Of a DNA stretch of 64,000 bases, positions 1,574-10,113 are shown piece after piece (position 1 is the stretch's first letter; each line of letters opens with the position of its first letter). This DNA is from Pseudosulfitobacter pseudonitzschiae (GTDB taxonomy: Bacteria > Pseudomonadota > Alphaproteobacteria > Rhodobacterales > Rhodobacteraceae). The stretch is taken from NCBI RefSeq assembly GCF_900129395.1, contig NZ_FQVP01000004.1:310001-374000 (forward strand). Reading direction: 5' to 3'. The translations under genes and the position numbers were made by a program. The notes beneath the pieces are model-generated. The model had not been told where the DNA came from. It did no database searches and saw only the letters and a list, made by a program, of their open reading frames with translations.

Positions 1574-2883
1574 AACACATATATGCAGACTATGCCTATG
1601 GCAGCGGCCCGCGCGACGGGTGTTGGTGGGATGAAACCTGTGACTTGCCCGGTTTCCCCAAGTTAGAGACTGATATTGCCTGCGACGTCGCGATTGTCGG
1701 TGGCGGCTTCACCGGCCTGTCGGCGGCACTGCATCTGGCGCAGGCGGGTGTCGATGTTGTGGTGGTCGAGGCGGAATATGTCGGCTGGGGTGCATCGGGG
1801 CGCAACGGCGGTTTTTGTTGTCTGGGCGGTGCAAGGATTGACGATGCGGGGCTGGACCACCGCTTTGACCGGGTGGGACGGTTGCAATATCGCAAGGCGG
1901 AACGCGACGCGATTGCGCTGGTCGAACAGATCACCCAGGCGCACGGCATCGACGTGGATCGCCATTCGCAGGGCGAAACCGAACTGGCCCACCGGCCCAA
2001 GGATATGGACGCCCTGCGCCGCGCTGCCGATGCGGTGGCGGAAAACCACGGGGTTGATTGCCAGGTCATCGCGCGGGAGGGTCTGCCCGCGCATGGGCTG
2101 TCCGGGCCGTTCCACGGTGCGCTGACCATCCCCATCGGTTTTGCCCTGAACCCGCGCAAATACATCGCTGGCCTTGCCGCCGCTGCGCGGGATGCGGGCG
2201 CGCGTATCTTTGGCAAAACCCCGGTACAGAGCCTGAACAAGGGCCAGAAATGGACCCTGGATGCTGGCCGGAAGATCACGGCCGATCAGGTGGTGATTGC
2301 CACCAACGGCTATTCCTCGGACGATCTGCCCGACTGGCTGGCAGGGCGCTATATGCCCAGCCAGTCCAACGTGATCGTGACCCGCCCGCTGACCGAACAA
2401 GAGCAGGCAGAAGCCGGATGGACCAGCGATCAGGCCTGTTACGACACCCGCAACCTGCTGCACTATTTCCGCAAGATGCCGGACGGGCGGTTCCTGTTCG
2501 GGATGCGGGGCGGGCTGACGTCAAACCCCGCCGCCGAGGCGCGCGCGCGCCGTCGCGTGCGCCAGGATTTTGACGCGATGTTCCCCGCCTGGCGACATGT
2601 GGAACACGCGCATGGCTGGTCGGGGATGGTGTGTATTGCCCGCGATATGCTGCCTTTTGTCGGTGCGGTGCCAAACCAGCCGGGGCTGTTTGCCAGCCTG
2701 TGTTACCACGGCAATGGTGTGGCGATGGGCACCTATGCGGGCAAGCTGATCGCGGGACAGATCACCGGACAAGCCGAGGTTCCGGTCGCCATGGCGCAGC
2801 CCCTGTCGCGCTTTCCGCTGGGTCGGTACCGGCGGGCGGTGATGCCTGCCGCCTATGCGGGGTTCATGCTGGCCGACCTGTGA
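1570..2883 (+). CDS. FAD-dependent amine oxidoreductase (DadA/PuuB-like)
   Basis: 437-residue flavoprotein of the D-amino-acid oxidase superfamily. After a roughly 35-residue lead it has a dinucleotide-binding motif (VAIVGGGFTGLSAALHLA) and then GWGASGRNGGF, the FAD-contacting segment typical of gamma-glutamylputrescine and related amine oxidases. The C-terminal part contains GWSGMVCIARDMLPFVG and CYHGNGVAMGTYAGKL, which close the FAD site. It overlaps the permease stop by four bases, so uptake and oxidation of an amine such as putrescine are probably coupled. PuuB (gamma-glutamylputrescine oxidase) is the closest role, but a methylated amino acid oxidase remains possible because no glutamylputrescine synthetase is in view. 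Confidence 0.85.
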   Translation: MKHIYADYAYGSGPRDGCWWDETCDLPGFPKLETDIACDVAIVGGGFTGLSAALHLAQAGVDVVVVEAEYVGWGASGRNGGFCCLGGARIDDAGLDHRFDRVGRLQYRKAERDAIALVEQITQAHGIDVDRHSQGETELAHRPKDMDALRRAADAVAENHGVDCQVIAREGLPAHGLSGPFHGALTIPIGFALNPRKYIAGLAAAARDAGARIFGKTPVQSLNKGQKWTLDAGRKITADQVVIATNGYSSDDLPDWLAGRYMPSQSNVIVTRPLTEQEQAEAGWTSDQACYDTRNLLHYFRKMPDGRFLFGMRGGLTSNPAAEARARRRVRQDFDAMFPAWRHVEHAHGWSGMVCIARDMLPFVGAVPNQPGLFASLCYHGNGVAMGTYAGKLIAGQITGQAEVPVAMAQPLSRFPLGRYRRAVMPAAYAGFMLADL

Positions 2884-2932
2884 TGCAACTGCGTCTTTCG
2901 CGGTGAAATCCGACCGTTCCGTGATGCCAGCG

Positions 2933-2959
2933 TTGACAGGATGGCCCTGAACTTACATC
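2933..2959 (+). promoter_or_regulatory. Candidate sigma-70 promoter of ugd
   Basis: A perfect TTGACA lies at 2933-2938. A weak -10 candidate (tacatc, 2954-2959, spacing 15 bases) follows, 30 bases before the ugd start codon. The -35 box is convincing and the -10 box is not. The 106-base gap after the preceding operon suits an independent promoter. Confidence 0.4.
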
Positions 2960-2989
2960 TCAGTCACAAGAAAGCGCAGAGGGACCAGC

Positions 2990-4315
2990 ATGAAAATAGC
3001 AATGATCGGAACCGGCTATGTCGGGCTGGTGTCGGGTGTGTGCTTCTCGGACTTTGGGCACGATGTGGTTTGCGTCGACAAGGACCCCAAGAAAGTCGAG
3101 ATGCTGGAACGCGGCGAAGTTCCGATCTATGAGCCCGGTCTGGACGATCTGATGGCCAAGAACGTGGCGGCAGGGCGCCTGTCGTTCACCGGCGATCTGA
3201 AAGCCGCGGTGGACGGTGCCGAGGCTGTGTTCATCGCGGTCGGCACGCCCACGCGTCGCGGCGATGGCCACGCCGATCTGACCTATGTCATGGCCGCCGC
3301 CGCCGAGATTGCCGATGCGCTGACCGGGTACGCCGTGGTTGTGACCAAATCGACCGTGCCGGTGGGCACCAACCGCCAGGTCAAGCACGCGGTGCACAAG
3401 GCCAACCCGAACGCTGATTTCGACGTGGCCAGCAACCCCGAGTTCCTGCGCGAAGGCGCGGCGATTGACGATTTCATGCGCCCCGACCGCGTCGTTGTCG
3501 GTGTACAGAACGACCGCGCGGCGGAGGTGATGAACCAGATCTACCGCCCGCTGTACCTGCGGGATTTTCCGATCATGATCACCGATCTGGAAAGTGCCGA
3601 GATGATCAAATATGCCGCCAACGCATTTCTGGCGACCAAGATTACGTTCATCAACGAAATCGCGGCATTGTGCGAACGCACCGGTGCGGATGTGAAAACC
3701 GTGTCGCAGGGCATGGGGCTGGACGGGCGTATTGGCAACAAGTTCCTGCACGCTGGCCCCGGCTATGGCGGCAGCTGCTTTCCCAAGGACACGCAGGCGC
3801 TGGCCCGTATGGGGCAGGATCATTCGATGCCCATGCAGTTGACCGAGACCGTGATCAAGGTCAACGACGAGATCAAACGCCGCATGATCGACAAGGTTGT
3901 CGACCTGTGCGGTGGCAGGGTCAACGGCAAGATTATCGCGGTGCTGGGCGTGACGTTCAAACCCAACACAGATGACATGCGCGACAGCCCGTCGCTGACC
4001 ATTGTCCCCGCGTTGGTGGGGGGCGGCGCCAAGGTGCGGGTGGTCGACCCGCAGGGTCGCCGCGAAGGTGAGGCGTTGTTGCCTGGCGTCAACTGGTTCG
4101 AGGATGCCTATAAGGCGACCCAGAATGCGGATGCGGTGGTGATCCTGACCGAATGGAACGAATTCCGCGCGCTTGATCTGAAACGTATCGTCAAACGCAT
4201 GGCGACACCGGTCATGGCGGATCTGCGGAATATCTATTCGCAAAAGGACGCCAAGCGCGCCGGGTTCGTGGCCTATACGTCGGTCGGGCGCGAGGACTAC
4301 GGCATCGACCGCTAG
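2990..4315 (+). CDS. ugd: UDP-glucose 6-dehydrogenase
   Basis: Cytoplasmic NAD-dependent enzyme, 441 residues, oxidising UDP-glucose to UDP-glucuronate for exopolysaccharide, capsule or LPS sugars. The N-terminal Rossmann motif is MKIAMIGTGYVGLVSG. The catalytic cysteine sits in GPGYGGSCFPKDTQAL (around residue 262). The C-terminal UDP-binding domain begins near IIAVLGVTFKPNTDDMRDSP. Length and motifs are standard for the family. The start ATG has GAGGGA seven bases upstream. No other polysaccharide genes are adjacent, so it is a stand-alone gene here. Its stop overlaps the convergent flgD stop by four bases. Confidence 0.97.
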   Translation: MKIAMIGTGYVGLVSGVCFSDFGHDVVCVDKDPKKVEMLERGEVPIYEPGLDDLMAKNVAAGRLSFTGDLKAAVDGAEAVFIAVGTPTRRGDGHADLTYVMAAAAEIADALTGYAVVVTKSTVPVGTNRQVKHAVHKANPNADFDVASNPEFLREGAAIDDFMRPDRVVVGVQNDRAAEVMNQIYRPLYLRDFPIMITDLESAEMIKYAANAFLATKITFINEIAALCERTGADVKTVSQGMGLDGRIGNKFLHAGPGYGGSCFPKDTQALARMGQDHSMPMQLTETVIKVNDEIKRRMIDKVVDLCGGRVNGKIIAVLGVTFKPNTDDMRDSPSLTIVPALVGGGAKVRVVDPQGRREGEALLPGVNWFEDAYKATQNADAVVILTEWNEFRALDLKRIVKRMATPVMADLRNIYSQKDAKRAGFVAYTSVGREDYGIDR

Positions 4316-5004
4316 ACCGGGTCGCGCAGCCCGGTCACGTCGTCGGCCAGAACCGCAATCCCGCCTTCCAGGATCAGGATCGTGCGCCCCTGTTCTATCC
4401 GCGCTTCGGTGACGCGCCCGTAGGTTTGGGCGCGTTCGGCCAGCAGCAGTTCGCCCGCCTGATAGCTTTCGACTTCGAACGTGTAATTCCCGTCGGGGAA
4501 GGTTGATCCGTTCAGCCCGGCAATCCCCTGCCATTGCACTGCATCGGGCGAGACGGGAATGCTCTGGCGCTGAACTTCGTTTCCCGCGTCGTCATAAACC
4601 ACCAGATAAGCCGCGTCCGCGGCGGTCAGCGGGTTCGGCGCGATGGTCACGGGCGTGCCGTCGAAATGGGCCGGGGCATAAGACAACGCCTCCATCCCGA
4701 TCCAGCCAGACAGTGCGCCGACATTGGTTTGCGTCGCGTTTGCGGCTTGCAACGCGGCACTGAGCGTTTGCAACAGGTCGTTGGTCTGTACCTGCTGTTC
4801 GACCATCGAGAACTGCGCCAGCTGCGCGGCATATTCCGAGCTGTCCATGGGTTCCAGCGGGTCCTGATAGCGGGCCTGCGTGGTCATCATCCTGAGAAAG
4901 GTTTCAAAGTCGGAAGAAATGAGCGACGCCGCTTTTTCCGGGAGGGGCGTTGTGCTGGTCTGACTTTGTGCCTGGGCTTGCGCTGCGGTGGGGGCGATGT
5001 TCAT
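4312..5004 (-). CDS. flgD: Flagellar hook-capping scaffold protein FlgD
   Basis: 230-residue FlgD, the cap that templates polymerisation of hook subunits. The N-terminal half carries the family signature: SDFETFLRMMTTQARYQDPL, then EYAAQLAQFSMVEQQVQTND. The C-terminal half is the FlgD Ig/tudor-like part (IGMEALSYAP, then PVTIAPNP). It follows fliK by 11 bases on the same strand, so the two are probably one operon (hook assembly plus hook-length control). It is intact. Given the broken flgE at 7635-9047 it may have no working partner in this strain. Confidence 0.93.
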   Translation of the reverse strand: MNIAPTAAQAQAQSQTSTTPLPEKAASLISSDFETFLRMMTTQARYQDPLEPMDSSEYAAQLAQFSMVEQQVQTNDLLQTLSAALQAANATQTNVGALSGWIGMEALSYAPAHFDGTPVTIAPNPLTAADAAYLVVYDDAGNEVQRQSIPVSPDAVQWQGIAGLNGSTFPDGNYTFEVESYQAGELLLAERAQTYGRVTEARIEQGRTILILEGGIAVLADDVTGLRDPV

Positions 5005-5015
5005 GGCGGCGATCC

Positions 5016-6692
5016 TTATACTCTGATGTCCATGGCGGAATCGGGCGACAGCGGGGTGTCCCCTTCGAGGTCCGCTGCATCGGTGGCGATGTCTGCGATT
5101 GGCTGCGTTTTGTGCGGGGGCGTGTCGTCGCGTTGATCCTGTGCGCCATCCCCGCCGGAAAAGGCGAAATTGACGTCGCCATAGCCCATGTCCGCAAATT
5201 CACTTTCCAACTCGCCAATGTTCCGGCGCATCAGGTCCAGCGTCTCGGGGCGGTCGGCGTGAATTGTGACCGAGGCTCCCGCATCGTTGGTTGAAAGGGA
5301 CATGCGTACCCGGCCCAGCTCTGCCGGATTGAGGGTCAGTTCTATCTGCCGGTCTGCGCTGGATTGTACGGCGGCCTCTGCGACCTGTCTGGCCACCGTG
5401 GCGTGCGGATGCGTCGGCGCGGCCGGTGTCGTGACACTGTGCGTCTGTGCAGGCGGCGCGCCGGAGGCGCGCATGTCGGTGAAAATCGCGTCGGGGGCGG
5501 CGTCCACGGGGATCGGATCGGTGGAAACCTGTGACGCTGGGGCGCGGATTTCGGTTGTGACGGGTGCTGGCGTTGGTTGAGGGGGCGCGGGATGATTGGC
5601 TGTCTGTCGGATGACAGGCGGGTCGACGGGATCCCGTGGCAGCACATTTTCCGTGGCCGCTGTGGGTTGAGGATCCGGCGGAATAGCATTGGCAGGCTGC
5701 GCGGGCGCTGTGATCAGCCGAACGGTGACCGACGTTGTTGCCGGTTGCATGGGCTGCGCCGGTTTTTCCGCTTTCGGCAGAGCAGCGCCCGGTGTGGCCT
5801 GAACCAGCGGCGCAGTGGGCCGTATCGGCGTCAGAAGCGGCTGCTTTGCCGATGTCACTGGCACCGCTGACACATCAATGCGGATAGGCCTGTCCGGCGC
5901 TGTGGCTGGTCGGGTAGATGCTGGCATCGGGGGGGGCGCCTTGTGAAGCGCAGCGGGGGTGTGCGTTGGCCGCGCGGGCGGCAAATCGGGCGTCTCTGTC
6001 AGCAGGGGCGGTGCGTTTTTTGGTGCCGCGGCCGCTTTTGAAAACGCGTCTTCAAGCAGTATGGTTCTAGGCTCTATCAATGGACTTTGAGCCGAACGCG
6101 AGGTTTCAACCGTGTCGGATTCGGTGGACTGCGGCGTCTTGTTAGGTGACTGACCCACATGCTGTTCTTTCGAAGCCATCTCGTGCAACGGCTCAGGAGC
6201 CGCGTGCGCTTCGACAGAGGGGCCGTGCAAAGCCGCCTTTCCCGGCATGGCTGTTGCGGCGGGTGGCAACGATTCCACCTGCGCGACGGGAGGCATCACG
6301 GACCCGGACCCTGTGGCAAAGGTGATCACCGATTCCGCGCCGCTCCGTGGGTGTTTCGAACCCTTGGCCTTGACCTCGGGCGGTGCGTCGTGCCGCGAAA
6401 CCGGCGCTTCCTGCGCCAACGCAGGCAGACGGGATGGCATTTGCGAAAGCGCGGCAGCTTCGCCGCCTTCTTGCTTTTCCTCTTCAGGCGTTGCGCCCTC
6501 GATATCGGGCAGACCATCCACCTGTGTGTCCGCGTCTGGCAAGTCCTGCGCCGTGACCGTAGTCCCGTTTTCCTGCAAAGGTAGAAGCTGGTCGAAGGTC
6601 GCGGCGAAACTGACGGCGGGATCTGACGCCGCGACCGCGGTGCTGCGCGGCGCTGCGGGTGAACCGCTGTGAATCAAGGGAATAAGTTGCAC
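5016..6692 (-). CDS. fliK: Flagellar hook-length control protein FliK
   Basis: 558 residues. The long N-terminal and central part is low-complexity and rich in Pro, Ala and Thr, typical of the molecular ruler. The C-terminal Flg_hook domain is recognisable around residues 445-520 (QIELTLNPAELGRVRMSLST, then IGELESEFADMGY). FliK is secreted during hook growth and switches export specificity when the hook reaches its set length. It is transcribed divergently from the flgJ-like gene, with 114 bases between the starts, and is followed by flgD. The low-complexity body makes alignment uninformative outside the C-terminus. The assignment rests on that domain plus context. Confidence 0.9.
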   Translation of the reverse strand: MQLIPLIHSGSPAAPRSTAVAASDPAVSFAATFDQLLPLQENGTTVTAQDLPDADTQVDGLPDIEGATPEEEKQEGGEAAALSQMPSRLPALAQEAPVSRHDAPPEVKAKGSKHPRSGAESVITFATGSGSVMPPVAQVESLPPAATAMPGKAALHGPSVEAHAAPEPLHEMASKEQHVGQSPNKTPQSTESDTVETSRSAQSPLIEPRTILLEDAFSKAAAAPKNAPPLLTETPDLPPARPTHTPAALHKAPPPMPASTRPATAPDRPIRIDVSAVPVTSAKQPLLTPIRPTAPLVQATPGAALPKAEKPAQPMQPATTSVTVRLITAPAQPANAIPPDPQPTAATENVLPRDPVDPPVIRQTANHPAPPQPTPAPVTTEIRAPASQVSTDPIPVDAAPDAIFTDMRASGAPPAQTHSVTTPAAPTHPHATVARQVAEAAVQSSADRQIELTLNPAELGRVRMSLSTNDAGASVTIHADRPETLDLMRRNIGELESEFADMGYGDVNFAFSGGDGAQDQRDDTPPHKTQPIADIATDAADLEGDTPLSPDSAMDIRV

Positions 6693-6740
6693 ACATCCTC
6701 CGGGAGTTCTTCCTCGTCCCCGTCTTATGCCTGCGCTTGG

Positions 6741-6755
6741 TTACCGCTTCTTTAC
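6741..6755. promoter_or_regulatory. Degenerate CtrA-like half-site pair between fliK and flgJ-like gene
   Basis: TTAC-N7-TTAC (6741-6744 and 6752-6755) lies in the 114-base divergent gap. The CtrA consensus is TTAA-N7-TTAA, so this matches three of four bases in each half. It is weak alone and is listed because comparable spaced pairs precede fliC and flgE. Confidence 0.3.
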
Positions 6756-6806
6756 CGGTCCTGCGGCATGATCCTGAAAATACAACGCATTTGAAAGGAA
6801 CCCGGG

Positions 6807-7097
6807 ATGCAAGTGACACCAGACACGGCGGGCGTGGCTTTGGCCCGCAAGCCAACCGCGCAGGCCGATGCAGAACTGCGCGCCGTGGCAGACCAGCTTG
6901 AGGCGGGGTTTCTGGCGGAAATGCTGAAATCCGCCGGTTTCGGACAGGCGCGCGACAGCTTTGGCGGTGGCGCGGGAGAGGATCAGTTTTCCTCGTTCCT
7001 GATACAGGCGCAGGCCGAAAAGATGGTTGCCGCAGGCGGTATCGGTCTGAGCGAAGCAGTGTTCGAAGCTTTGAAAGGCCGGTCTGATGTCGAATGA
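6807..7097 (+). CDS. Rod-binding protein, FlgJ N-terminal domain only
   Basis: 96-residue protein matching the rod-binding (FlgJ_N) domain without the muramidase domain found in enteric FlgJ. This single-domain form is usual in alphaproteobacteria. Recognisable parts are VADQLEAGFLAEMLKSAGF near the N-terminus and FLIQAQAEKMVAAGGIGLSE near the C-terminus. It acts in the periplasm during rod assembly. The start is supported by AAAGGA nine bases upstream. It overlaps the flgN start by 11 bases, so the two are co-translated. It is divergent from fliK. Confidence 0.85.
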   Translation: MQVTPDTAGVALARKPTAQADAELRAVADQLEAGFLAEMLKSAGFGQARDSFGGGAGEDQFSSFLIQAQAEKMVAAGGIGLSEAVFEALKGRSDVE

Positions 7098-7446
7098 AAC
7101 GGTCGAGGATACGGTCAATGCGCTGGACGATTTGCTGGATCAGGAACGCGGCGCCCTGCTTGCCGGCGACCTGGACAGAATCGCCCGGACGCTGGATTTG
7201 AAACAATCGCTGATCGACCGTCTGAACGAGCTGGATGTGGCGGACCGGTCGTCGCTGGCCGCACTGAATGCAAAGGTCATGCGCAACCAGTCGTTGTTGA
7301 ATTCCGCGCTGGACGGGATACGGGCGGTCACCCGCCGGCTGGCAACCATGCGCCGTATCCGCAGTTCGCTGGATATATATGACGCACAAGGCAAGAAGAA
7401 CGAGATTGCCCTGACGCCGAACCGGTCGGTCGAAAAGCGGGCTTAG
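7087..7446 (+). CDS. FlgN-like flagellar export chaperone
   Basis: 119-residue, mostly helical cytoplasmic protein (LDDLLDQERGALLAGDLDRI, then RLATMRRIRSSLDIYDAQGK), matching the FlgN-like chaperones that escort hook-associated proteins FlgK/FlgL to the export apparatus. The family has low sequence conservation, so the name leans on its helical pattern and on its position between flgJ and fliC. It overlaps flgJ by 11 bases. Its expected clients flgK/flgL are not in this window. Confidence 0.75.
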   Translation: MSNETVEDTVNALDDLLDQERGALLAGDLDRIARTLDLKQSLIDRLNELDVADRSSLAALNAKVMRNQSLLNSALDGIRAVTRRLATMRRIRSSLDIYDAQGKKNEIALTPNRSVEKRA

Positions 7447-7486
7447 CGCCGTTTGATTCAAATCCGGGGGAAGACACGAGTCGTCA

Positions 7487-7501
7487 TTAGCTTTCCATTA
7501 G
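7487..7501 (+). promoter_or_regulatory. CtrA-like box upstream of fliC
   Basis: TTAG-N7-TTAG (7487-7490 and 7498-7501) lies about 155 bases before the flagellin start codon in the 210-base flgN-fliC gap. Each half differs from TTAA by one base. CtrA controls motility genes in many Rhodobacterales; binding here is inferred from the motif. Confidence 0.4.
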
Positions 7502-7656
7502 CACGTAGATGCGATGTTGACCCTGCACTCGAGAACAGAGTGGCGCAGATCAGCATCGCTGAAAAATGCATATGTCAGAATGACTTGTTTTTGTCCGTCC
7601 CACTGGGGGGCGGGACGTAACCTGACGCAAAGCGTCACGACTTAAGGAACATGTTC

Positions 7657-7821
7657 ATGTCGAGCATCAATACAAACAACAGCGCAATGGTTGCGCTGCA
7701 AACCCTGAAATCCATCAACAGCAACCTGACGAAAACGCAGGACGAAATCTCGACCGGTAAATCGGTTTCGATGGCCAAGGACAACTCCACCGTCTGGATG
7801 ACTTTTGCGTTCGACGAATAG
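7657..7821 (+). pseudogene. fliC: Flagellin gene fragment: first 47 codons of fliC, then run-off into antisense flgE
   Basis: A normal flagellin start, ATG at 7657 with AAGGA eight bases upstream. It encodes the N-terminal D0 segment (NNSAMVALQTLKSINSNL, then ISTGKSVSMAKDNSTVW). Homology stops after Trp47 (codon ending at 7797). The next seven codons are antisense flgE and end at a TAG (7819-7821). The 54-residue product lacks almost all of D0/D1 and cannot form filament. The flaF/flbT genes that normally follow fliC are missing. The break coincides with a 12-base stretch that also fits flgE. I regard this as a real gene remnant, not a functional short ORF. Confidence 0.9.
7786..7797. other. 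Rearrangement junction between fliC and flgE (12-base microhomology)
   Basis: The bases tccaccgtctgg read as Ser-Thr-Val-Trp (flagellin residues 44-47) on the plus strand. On the minus strand they fall in FlgE's conserved C-terminal AKVIQTVDE region, as far as Val and the start of Asp. To the left only fliC is recognisable, to the right only flgE. The exact overlap is inferred from the expected family sequences, because the parent loci are not in the window. Confidence 0.8.
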
Positions 7822-9105
7822 GCCCGCTGCGTGCGGATCATCTCGGTCAGTTCGGTGGCAACATCGACTGTGGATTCCTCGCGGGCATAGGATTTCAGGT
7901 CACCCGTTGGCCCATCACCCGCGTCCCAAAGAAAGAGGGGACCGCTTTCGACCGAGGGTTTGTAGGTCTGCGAATCCAACGAGATCAGGCCACCGGGGTT
8001 GGGCATGTCGACCAGCGGGATCTGATAGAGAACACTGGTCACGCCTGTGTCAAAGATCGCCTTGACGTAGCCGTTCGGATCAACCTCGACCGAGATCATG
8101 TTGCCCACGGGGCTGCCGTCCTTGACCACCGAGATTGGCGCGAACGTATCGGACAGCTGTACAACGCCCTGATTGTCGCCGACCTCGCCGATGTCGATGG
8201 AAATCGGGCCGCTGGCCACATCGACAATCAACTCGCCCGTTGCCGGATCATAGGGTCCGCCTGTCACCGTGGTGACCGATGCGATTGTGCCGCCGTCTGC
8301 TCGGGTGTCGTTAAAGTTGATGACGTATTCGCCGATCACCGCATCGTCCTGCGCTGAATCGCGCATGATCACGGTCCATTCATTGGAACTGCCTGTGGCG
8401 GGCACCGTCGGTATGAACTCCAGCGCGATGCTCTGCGAGGTGCCGAGGTTGTCGAAATATTCCACCGACAGGTTCTGTGTCTCGCCGTCCGATCCGGCAA
8501 TTGTCGAGGTGGCAGGCAGGTTCAGGCCCATCGTCACCTGTGTTGTCGGGTCGCCCTTGAGATTCAGCGAAAACTGGATGGGCTCCAGCCCGTCGCTGGT
8601 GTCGCGGGGGAAAGAGGGGAAGGACCCGTCGATATTGGCAGGCCAACCCATCAGCAACAGGCCGGATTCGCTGGCCAGATATCCGTCCTCGTCGATGCGG
8701 AATGATCCGGTGGTGGTCAGCATCATCTTGGCGTTGCCATCCCCCGCCAGCACACTGGAGCGTGAGGCGACGGGCAGCATACCGCGCCCGCGCACGGCAA
8801 GGTCGGTGGCATTCGATGTGCTGACCAGCGATCCGCTTTCGCTGATCAGCCGTTGCGACGACGCGCGCACGCCGCCCGCTGTATAGGATACGCCCGAATT
8901 CGACAGGACCAGGGAATTGAAATCCGTGACCACCCGCTTGTACCCAAAGGTGCTGGCGTTCGCGATGTTGTCCGAGATCGACCCAAGCCGCGTCGCGTTG
9001 GACTGCAACCCCGCAATACCTGCGTTGAGCGAAGAGGAAATTGTCATGGATACGCCTTTCTGCTGCATCAGAACCAAGTTGATGCAACAGATAGGCGCCG
9101 CGAAC

Positions 9106-9152: not shown

Positions 9153-9959
9153 CTACCGCAGGAAAATGACCTTGATGCGGTTGTTGCGGATGTCCATCGG
9201 GTCAAGCGTGGCCGGGTCCCGATCCGCATGTCCGGTCACCCGTTGCACGCGCCCGGGGGCAAGCCCCGCATCATGCAGCAACTGGCGCATGATGACCGCC
9301 TGTTCTGTTGACTGGTCCCAGACCTTGATCCTGGCCGCGACCACAGGTTGCGCCTGCACATGCGCGGCCACGGCCATGTCGTTTTTCACCGACCGGCCGG
9401 TCTGCACCAGCAGATCCGCCAACTTGCGCAACAGCCGCGTGGGCTGACCCGTGTCCGCGTCGAACAGCGGGGCATCCGGCAGCGCAAACAACTCGACCAC
9501 CAGCCCCTCGTCGGTCAGCTTGGTGATCACGTGTTTCATCTCGTTTTCCAAGACGTCGGATTCGCCGCCAAATCCCAACAGTTCCGATTCAAGCATTTTC
9601 AGGGCTGAGGTTTCGGCATCATCGGTCCCTTCGGACCCGGTGTCACGTCGCGCCACAACCGCCGGACGCGCACCGCTGAAGGGCAATGCCTCGTCGGTAA
9701 AGGTGCTGTCGCCATTGAACGATCCGTTGCCGCCCCCCGAAACCCGGTTGATCGCGACCGTCGGCGTGAAATAATCCGCGATCCCCTTGCGTTGCTTTTC
9801 CGTCGTCGCGTTCAACAACCACATCAACATGAAAAAGGCCATCATCGCGGTCACGAAGTCCGCGTAAGCAACTTTCCAGGCACCACCATGGTGCCCACCG
9901 CCGCCAACGACCTTTTTACGTTTGATGATGATTGGCGCCGCATTGCTTTGCGCAGCCAT
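9153..9959 (-). CDS. motB: MotB-like flagellar stator protein
   Basis: 268 residues. After a basic lead (IIIKRKKVVGGGGHHGG) comes the single transmembrane plug region KVAYADFVTAMMAFFMLMWL, whose Asp is the proton-carrying residue of MotB. The C-terminus ends with an OmpA-like peptidoglycan-binding segment (VTGHADRDP, then MDIRNNRIKVIFLR). The start at 9959 is chosen because the MotB lead begins MAAQSNAAP; an upstream ATG at 9986 is also in frame. Stator function needs MotA, which is not in the window. The gene looks intact although the hook and flagellin genes next to it are broken. Confidence 0.9.
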   Translation of the reverse strand: MAAQSNAAPIIIKRKKVVGGGGHHGGAWKVAYADFVTAMMAFFMLMWLLNATTEKQRKGIADYFTPTVAINRVSGGGNGSFNGDSTFTDEALPFSGARPAVVARRDTGSEGTDDAETSALKMLESELLGFGGESDVLENEMKHVITKLTDEGLVVELFALPDAPLFDADTGQPTRLLRKLADLLVQTGRSVKNDMAVAAHVQAQPVVAARIKVWDQSTEQAVIMRQLLHDAGLAPGRVQRVTGHADRDPATLDPMDIRNNRIKVIFLR

Positions 9960-10113
9960 GTCACTCACCCGTTTGTATTCACCCAACGACAGATCTAGCG
10001 GACAACGCTTTCCAGCGGCTTAACAAACGCAATTGTAGGTAATGGTTTCACCCTCAAGGGCAGTTGCACAGCTCCGCATGATCTGCGCTGATGCGCAAAA
10101 CGGGGGGACGGGC

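Follow-up and report, generated by a model that had tools for sequence, protein, structure and literature searches.

The window, the whole 64,000-nucleotide stretch of Pseudosulfitobacter pseudonitzschiae DNA analyzed here (G000:C15:310001-374000), carries a joint between the flagellin gene fliC and the antisense strand of flgE, which we read, with a probability of about 0.5, as the scar left when the fla1 flagellar gene cluster was excised site-specifically by a putative activity. The genome of the window has lost most of its flagellum genes through deletion. The joint and its flanks comprise the following features:

7657..7788, plus strand: fliC remnant, codons 1–43 and up to the whole of codon 44 (PF00669, translation)
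7786..7788, no strand: crossover interval TCC, fliC only to its left and flgE only to its right (intact genes of relatives; codon tallies of the 29 carriers)
7786..9047, minus strand: flgE remnant, FlgE codons 1–420 (Pfam, ORF 7635–9077, intact relatives)
9153..9986, minus strand: motB, intact, right flank of the deletion (PF13677)
7087..7446, plus strand: flgN, intact, left flank of the deletion (PF05130)
6807..7097, plus strand: flgJ-like rod-binding protein, intact, left flank (PF10135)
5016..6692, minus strand: fliK, intact, left flank (PF02120)
4312..5004, minus strand: flgD, intact, left flank (PF03963, PF13860)

The fliC/flgE junction is genuine. It is present once in the assembly, in the interior of contig C15 (580 kb) and away from the contig ends. 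The ATG at 7657 on the plus strand starts a flagellin N-terminus, as the first-pass annotation of this DNA had proposed, with a PF00669 profile match over positions 1–44 (E = 1.3e-8), and the sequence on the 3' side of the joint is, again as annotated, antisense to flgE and matches three FlgE/rod families in Pfam. The open frame of the fliC remnant extends to a stop at 7819–7821, giving 54 amino acids, and the remnant is 66–98% identical to those of the other carriers of the joint. On the minus strand, flgE begins at 9047, and the remnant lacks only the last 12 residues of FlgE, DEMLQETTNIKR; in intact relatives the protein ends with IQTVDEMLQETTNIKR immediately before the stop codon. The FlgE query ended at residue 416, and with the Ile-Gln-Thr-Val codons beyond the query the remnant reaches codon 420, after which its frame crosses antisense fliC and stops at 7635.

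The changeover had been placed after codon 47, at an exact 12-base identity, tccaccgtctgg (7786–7797 of the window), where recombination or end-joining of the two genes was proposed. It lies instead in codon 44: the Asn43 codon of the fliC remnant occupies 7783–7785, and the switch to antisense flgE falls inside the next codon (7786–7788), whose TCC holds the only bases possibly common to both parents in the window. Among 30 flagellin loci scanned in other genomes, 21 were readable at the site and nine gave no reading; 20 of the 21 read DN[S/A]-Ala-[V/I]-W and one DNASLF, five flagellins from complete clusters read DN[S/A]AVW, and the intact flagellin of G456 reads DNSAVW. Because none of the 27 intact flagellins has a Thr codon at the site, Thr45-Val46-Trp47 of the joint correspond to antisense flgE Ile417-Gln418-Thr419-Val420. 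In addition, the 'Trp47' codon is TGA (seven) or TGT (three) in 10 of the 29 carriers, as from flgE ATT or ATA codons. The parents have 6–8 contiguous bases in common near the site and 1–3 at the crossover itself, TC(N) or only C(N). Read against the intact relatives, the 12-base microhomology is evidently not real, and the Thr codon and the bases rightward of it evidently derive from flgE.

The first-pass annotation had foreseen a deletion if the parental genes were convergent, and the gene order of a close relative bears this out. In the congeneric genome G001, which is intact, a span of 26.6 kb separates flgE from fliC, the two being convergent, and the same flanks enclose a complete cluster in the order motB-flgE-flgK-flgL-flgI ... 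flhA ... fliC-flgN-flgJ-fliK-flgD. In other complete clusters the convergent flgE and fliC lie 20.7 (G007), 26.0 (G015), 20.3 (G030) and 20.5 kb (G023) apart. Of the genes that a deletion would remove, flhA (PF00771) has no match in the window's genome, and a PF00669 search there found neither another flagellin start nor the rest of fliC, the sole start being that of the remnant. The alternative put forward by the annotation, an inversion with a reciprocal junction elsewhere, is at odds with this lack of a flagellin remainder and is rejected, since no fliC-3'/flgE-3' joint was recognized in 19 carriers: of their 40 pattern matches with at most two mismatches, the 16 checked, among which were the two exact matches and the three with one mismatch, are not FliC-coding. 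Together, these comparisons support the joint as a deletion of a fla1-type flagellar cluster. Two side observations concern the window and G001. The gene at 2990–4315 of the window, which we take to be UDP-glucose dehydrogenase-like, adjoins flgD in the window and in G003, G004 and G005, and has no match around the intact G001 cluster. At G001:C1:1998829-2002043, CheA-type CheW domain matches are split and short, as if a gene were interrupted.

The fliC-flgE rearrangement singled out by the annotation exceeds chance, for the joint recurs to the base in other genomes, a recurrence that the annotation had missed. An identical joint is present in 29 distinct genomes from at least 18 genus groups, genera being counted by group codes, which may or may not cover the Shimia carrier and the two Alloyangia. 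In all 29 carriers the crossover lies in the same 1–3 bases, and in the window as in the 28 other genomes codon 44 of fliC directly abuts codon 420 of flgE without any added base. Codon 43 is Asn in 28 carriers and Asp in one, whereas codons 44 and 45 are [TG]CN and ACN in all 29. Homology to FlgE identified the joint in G000, G003, G004 and G005, all from the window's genus, in two Alloyangia, in one Shimia and in Roseovarius litoreus; altogether nine of the 29 carriers were discovered through FlgE homology and not through the junction pattern, and their joint is of the same type. In a family sample of one genome per genus, 12 of 394 genomes carry the joint (24 pattern-matching genomes yielded 11 true carriers, 13 having no fliC/flgE hit at the match, and G398 was added by homology). 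In an order sample of 390 genomes, 18 of the 30 pattern-matching genomes are true carriers; the 12 excluded are L114, L117, L119, L131, L136, L260, L264, L267, L269, L270 and L273, eleven loci without a fliC or flgE match, and G456 (L268), whose fliC is intact. G541 and G446 are one genome with the same coordinates and were counted once. The order sample contained no Ala-type joint, even though its pattern admitted both Thr- and Ala-type joints; the pattern searches sample species, and joints far from the pattern would escape them. The FlgE loci inspected showed no further breakpoint at the end of flgE, G002 aside, where flgE runs off the contig. Recurrence at one base-level position points to a site-specific cause over chance breakage.

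The events that formed the joint look independent, judging from the phylogeny of FlgE. On a tree of 149 FlgE rows, 29 with the joint and 120 intact, the joint label needs 21 changes, at least 16 of which are forced by well-supported branches; a first tree of 115 rows needed 12, with 8 forced. Both trees are quick searches on this single protein, built without the second copies of G003, G004, G005, G010 and G032, twelve further duplicates, and G002/L078 with its truncated flgE. Intact relatives are found within the carriers' own genus groups or next to them in the tree, namely G001 for the window, L084 for Alloyangia, L069 for Roseovarius, G693 for G398 and G617, G552 for G146 and G516, G094 for G585 and G198 for G626, and several are found for G473, G616, G574 and the three carriers of genus g319. 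The flgE of the carriers likewise resembles that of their own relatives (19 pairs). As described in the available text of Tomasch et al. 2025 (PMC12363192), fla1 is vertically inherited in Rhodobacterales and sporadically lost in independent events.

Both breakpoints lie in a motif common to fliC codons 44–47 and antisense flgE codons 417–421, [TG]C(N)-(R)C(N)-GTYTG, which arises because Ser/Ala-Ala-Val-Trp and Ile-Gln-Thr-Val-Asp are similarly coded on opposite strands. The crossover is always left of the motif's R and never within the longer matched run rightward. Across 96 intact genes, the flgE site has no third-position conservation beyond that elsewhere in the gene, the conserved positions being those set by the protein; since its wobble positions vary as elsewhere, the flgE site is probably not maintained as a DNA signal. 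As expected of site-specific recombination, the same base-exact joint recurs in independent events (29 of 29 carriers, at least 16 forced changes). In the mechanism that we propose, the two breakpoints would occupy equivalent positions of the common motif, and one putative sequence-specific activity, either a recombinase or a nuclease cutting both copies, would act at a fixed position in both genes. The left fliC end would then be joined to the right flgE end, and the circle or fragment would be lost, leaving the cell without the fla1 flagellum. The loss of motility would be kept or selected, and the leftover genes would decay afterwards.

Against such an activity, no excised circle or att-like element was found, either as a reciprocal joint in the 19 carriers or in viral contigs, which did not match the exact joint pattern, or in phages, which had no fliC start at E 0.01. 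The FlgE relatives on plasmids (206 records) are all below 60% identical, and among the 30 listed of 185 plasmid records with fliC-start matches, those annotated are flagellins. The joint in the window is also a quasi-palindrome (7774–7808; GCCAAGG...CCTTGGC in many carriers) because FliC AKD and FlgE AK are similarly coded on opposite strands. In many carriers the product can form a hairpin with GCCAAGG arms, which is exceptional in only some of the genomes. A hairpin or palindrome of the product is not convincing as the cause, as the fraction of random products that score at least as well for dyad symmetry runs from 0.0005 to 0.88 over the five products modelled.

The chief rival of a site-specific activity is a repeat-driven deletion hot spot with a one-sided start, a real possibility that we nevertheless do not favor. 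Here, a 3' end coming from the flgE side would, after resection or the collapse of a fork, pair with fliC through the imperfect repeat formed by fliC TCGGCNGTCTGG and flgE TCGACNGTCTGG; strong selection against flagella would then favor such deletions, and the one-sided crossover would reflect a fixed direction of replication. The breakpoints do lie at equivalent positions of an imperfect direct 12-mer, with 1–4 mismatches between the fliC and flgE copies, in the five complete clusters examined, all of which contain it because the protein motifs are conserved, and if the event were single-ended and began on the flgE side, the mismatched position would keep the flgE base, as observed. However, the same five clusters contain 96–445 perfect 12-mer repeat pairs and 2,093–8,321 one-mismatch pairs more than 5 kb apart; therefore neither repeat length nor chance selects the site, which such a process should rarely pick. 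Choice of the repeat by length is rejected on the same counts, and microhomology-mediated deletion, including the end-joining proposed in the first-pass annotation, is not supported, as better 12-mer pairs abound in every intact cluster examined. Moreover, were the crossover free to take any of the matched bases, of which at best 3 of 11 lie at the left, the chance that 16 independent events would all fall there is by our arithmetic about 1e-9.

Selection of the junction product itself is improbable. It would suppose a mini-locus of motB, FlgE 1–420 with a new tail, flagellin 1–44, flgN, flgJ, fliK and flgD, with a function for which the exact joint is needed. In its favor, the remnants are mostly not drifting, and the flgE remnant is fully open in 28 of the 29 carriers with low dN/dS: 0.018–0.107 for four pairs within the window's genus and 0.013–0.096 for other same-genus carrier pairs (four of eight measurable, the other four being dS-saturated), beside 0.012–0.166 for flgE of intact pairs. 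The fliC remnant, though of no use, is conserved too: its dN/dS is 0.063–0.090 in the window's genus and 0.18 for the loosest pair, G146–G516, and G678 and G613 differ in it by one nonsynonymous change in 110 sites at a dS of 0.6. Against such selection, the product on the fliC strand has variable ends (through the TGA and TGT forms of codon 47 given above), the FlgE tail of G398 has an early stop, flgE is broken in G298, motB has a stop in G003, and G005 has no fliK match. Recent independent losses are a simpler account of the low dN/dS. By these sequence measures, the events look mostly recent, and some losses look older, because dN/dS reaches 0.49 for fliK (G000 versus G004) and about 0.27 for flgD and motB in single pairs, G298, G003 and G005 carry the defects just listed, and G133 and G136 have long FlgE branches. 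Of the carriers tested, 12 of 19 keep CheW genes, as do 9 of 16 controls with flagella and 10 of 30 further genomes without an flhA match; on these small numbers the carriers resemble genomes that were flagellated until lately.

A single old deletion allele, spread by homologous recombination or gene transfer agents, or ancestral with intact clusters regained, would explain the identical crossover at once, but is very improbable and was rejected as an origin of the joint. A tree holding the carriers as one clade is rejected (p-AU 8e-62, lnL difference 2525), and the flgE and fliC remnants carry sequence of their own lineage, such as the SSINTN start in the window's genus and in Sulfitobacter L244/L245. 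Over the last 50 bases before the joint, carriers of eight lineages are 68–90% (median 80) alike and eight intact genes 76–88% (median 84); distant carriers are alike there because the protein is conserved, and since they are no more alike than the intact genes, there is no common donor tract. The wobble bases flanking the crossover vary among carriers as well, and fla1 is reported as strictly vertical in the available text of PMC12363192. An assembly or population artefact, which the annotation had considered in the form of an assembly error, is hardly credible, as the identical junction is common to 29 separate, independent assemblies, 10 of the 12 one-per-genus carriers lie outside the 309 flhA-positive genomes, and the other two have flhA elsewhere.

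The joint is one of several outcomes of flagellar loss in the one-per-genus sample. In total, 85 of the 394 genomes have no flhA match, 65 of them deduced by elimination from the listed flhA positives. Of these 85, 24 keep a long FlgE, with the joint in 10 and an intact flgE end in 14; G184, which has a weak flhA match, is left out of this count of carriers. Among ten partial clusters of flhA-less genomes, six have, in the stretch examined, nothing of the cluster after flgI and four are rearranged otherwise; in G287, flgI is followed by fliK and flgD about 10 kb on. In G061, G103, G269, G271, G296 and G129 (L204–L219), which are flhA-less, motB-flgE-flgK-flgL-flgI is kept and the rest is absent in the stretch examined. 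In G246 (L208), flgI is cut after about 58 matched residues, near 8600–8720, with flgD directly next. Two genera share another arrangement: in G099 and G378 (L200–L203), the leader of fliC runs into the final 56–57 residues of fliP, and a gene block, presumably MoxR/DUF58-like, lies between this fliC-fliP joint and flgI.

A site-specific excision of fla1 may be compared with two kinds of known system. At lacI-type deletion hot spots, deletions occur between short direct repeats and one pair is reused. The fla1 deletions are similar in that the breakpoints lie in short similar sequences of which one pair is used repeatedly. They are distinct in their length of 20–27 kb, an imperfect repeat amid hundreds of better ones, a crossover fixed to 1–3 bases, and an occurrence in at least 18 genera. 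The Anabaena nif elements and the Bacillus skin element are excised during development by a recombinase that the element itself carries, and a gene is restored by its removal. These systems and the joint described here have in common an excision that is exact to the base and bounded by two fixed sites, whereas in the latter coding genes are destroyed and there is no inserted element.

The fla1 losses in Rhodobacterales treated in PMC12363192 concern, in its available text, the same cluster in the same family, lost independently in many lineages. The words 'breakpoint' and 'remnant' are absent from the main text of that paper as available, and in the literature searched, including the available parts of PMC12363192 and PMC8267831, no description of the fliC/flgE joint was found. 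What our sequence comparison would add to the known sporadic loss of fla1 is a single exact, recurrent breakpoint.

A broader proposal, which we consider doubtful, is that roseobacters carry or meet an activity dedicated to the site-specific excision of the entire flagellar cluster at one motif common to fliC and flgE, a one-way switch from the motile to the non-motile state that would recur across the family. The joint represents a rare natural case in which the same 20–27 kb deletion is seen at base resolution across many independent lineages, and a single PCR can detect it, so that its formation can be timed in cultures and followed through metagenomes. Flagella are often lost in these bacteria, which affects how they swim or stick in their life with algae. 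Should one exact joint account for much of the recent loss, flagellum loss would be a predictable and possibly enzyme-driven event rather than random decay.
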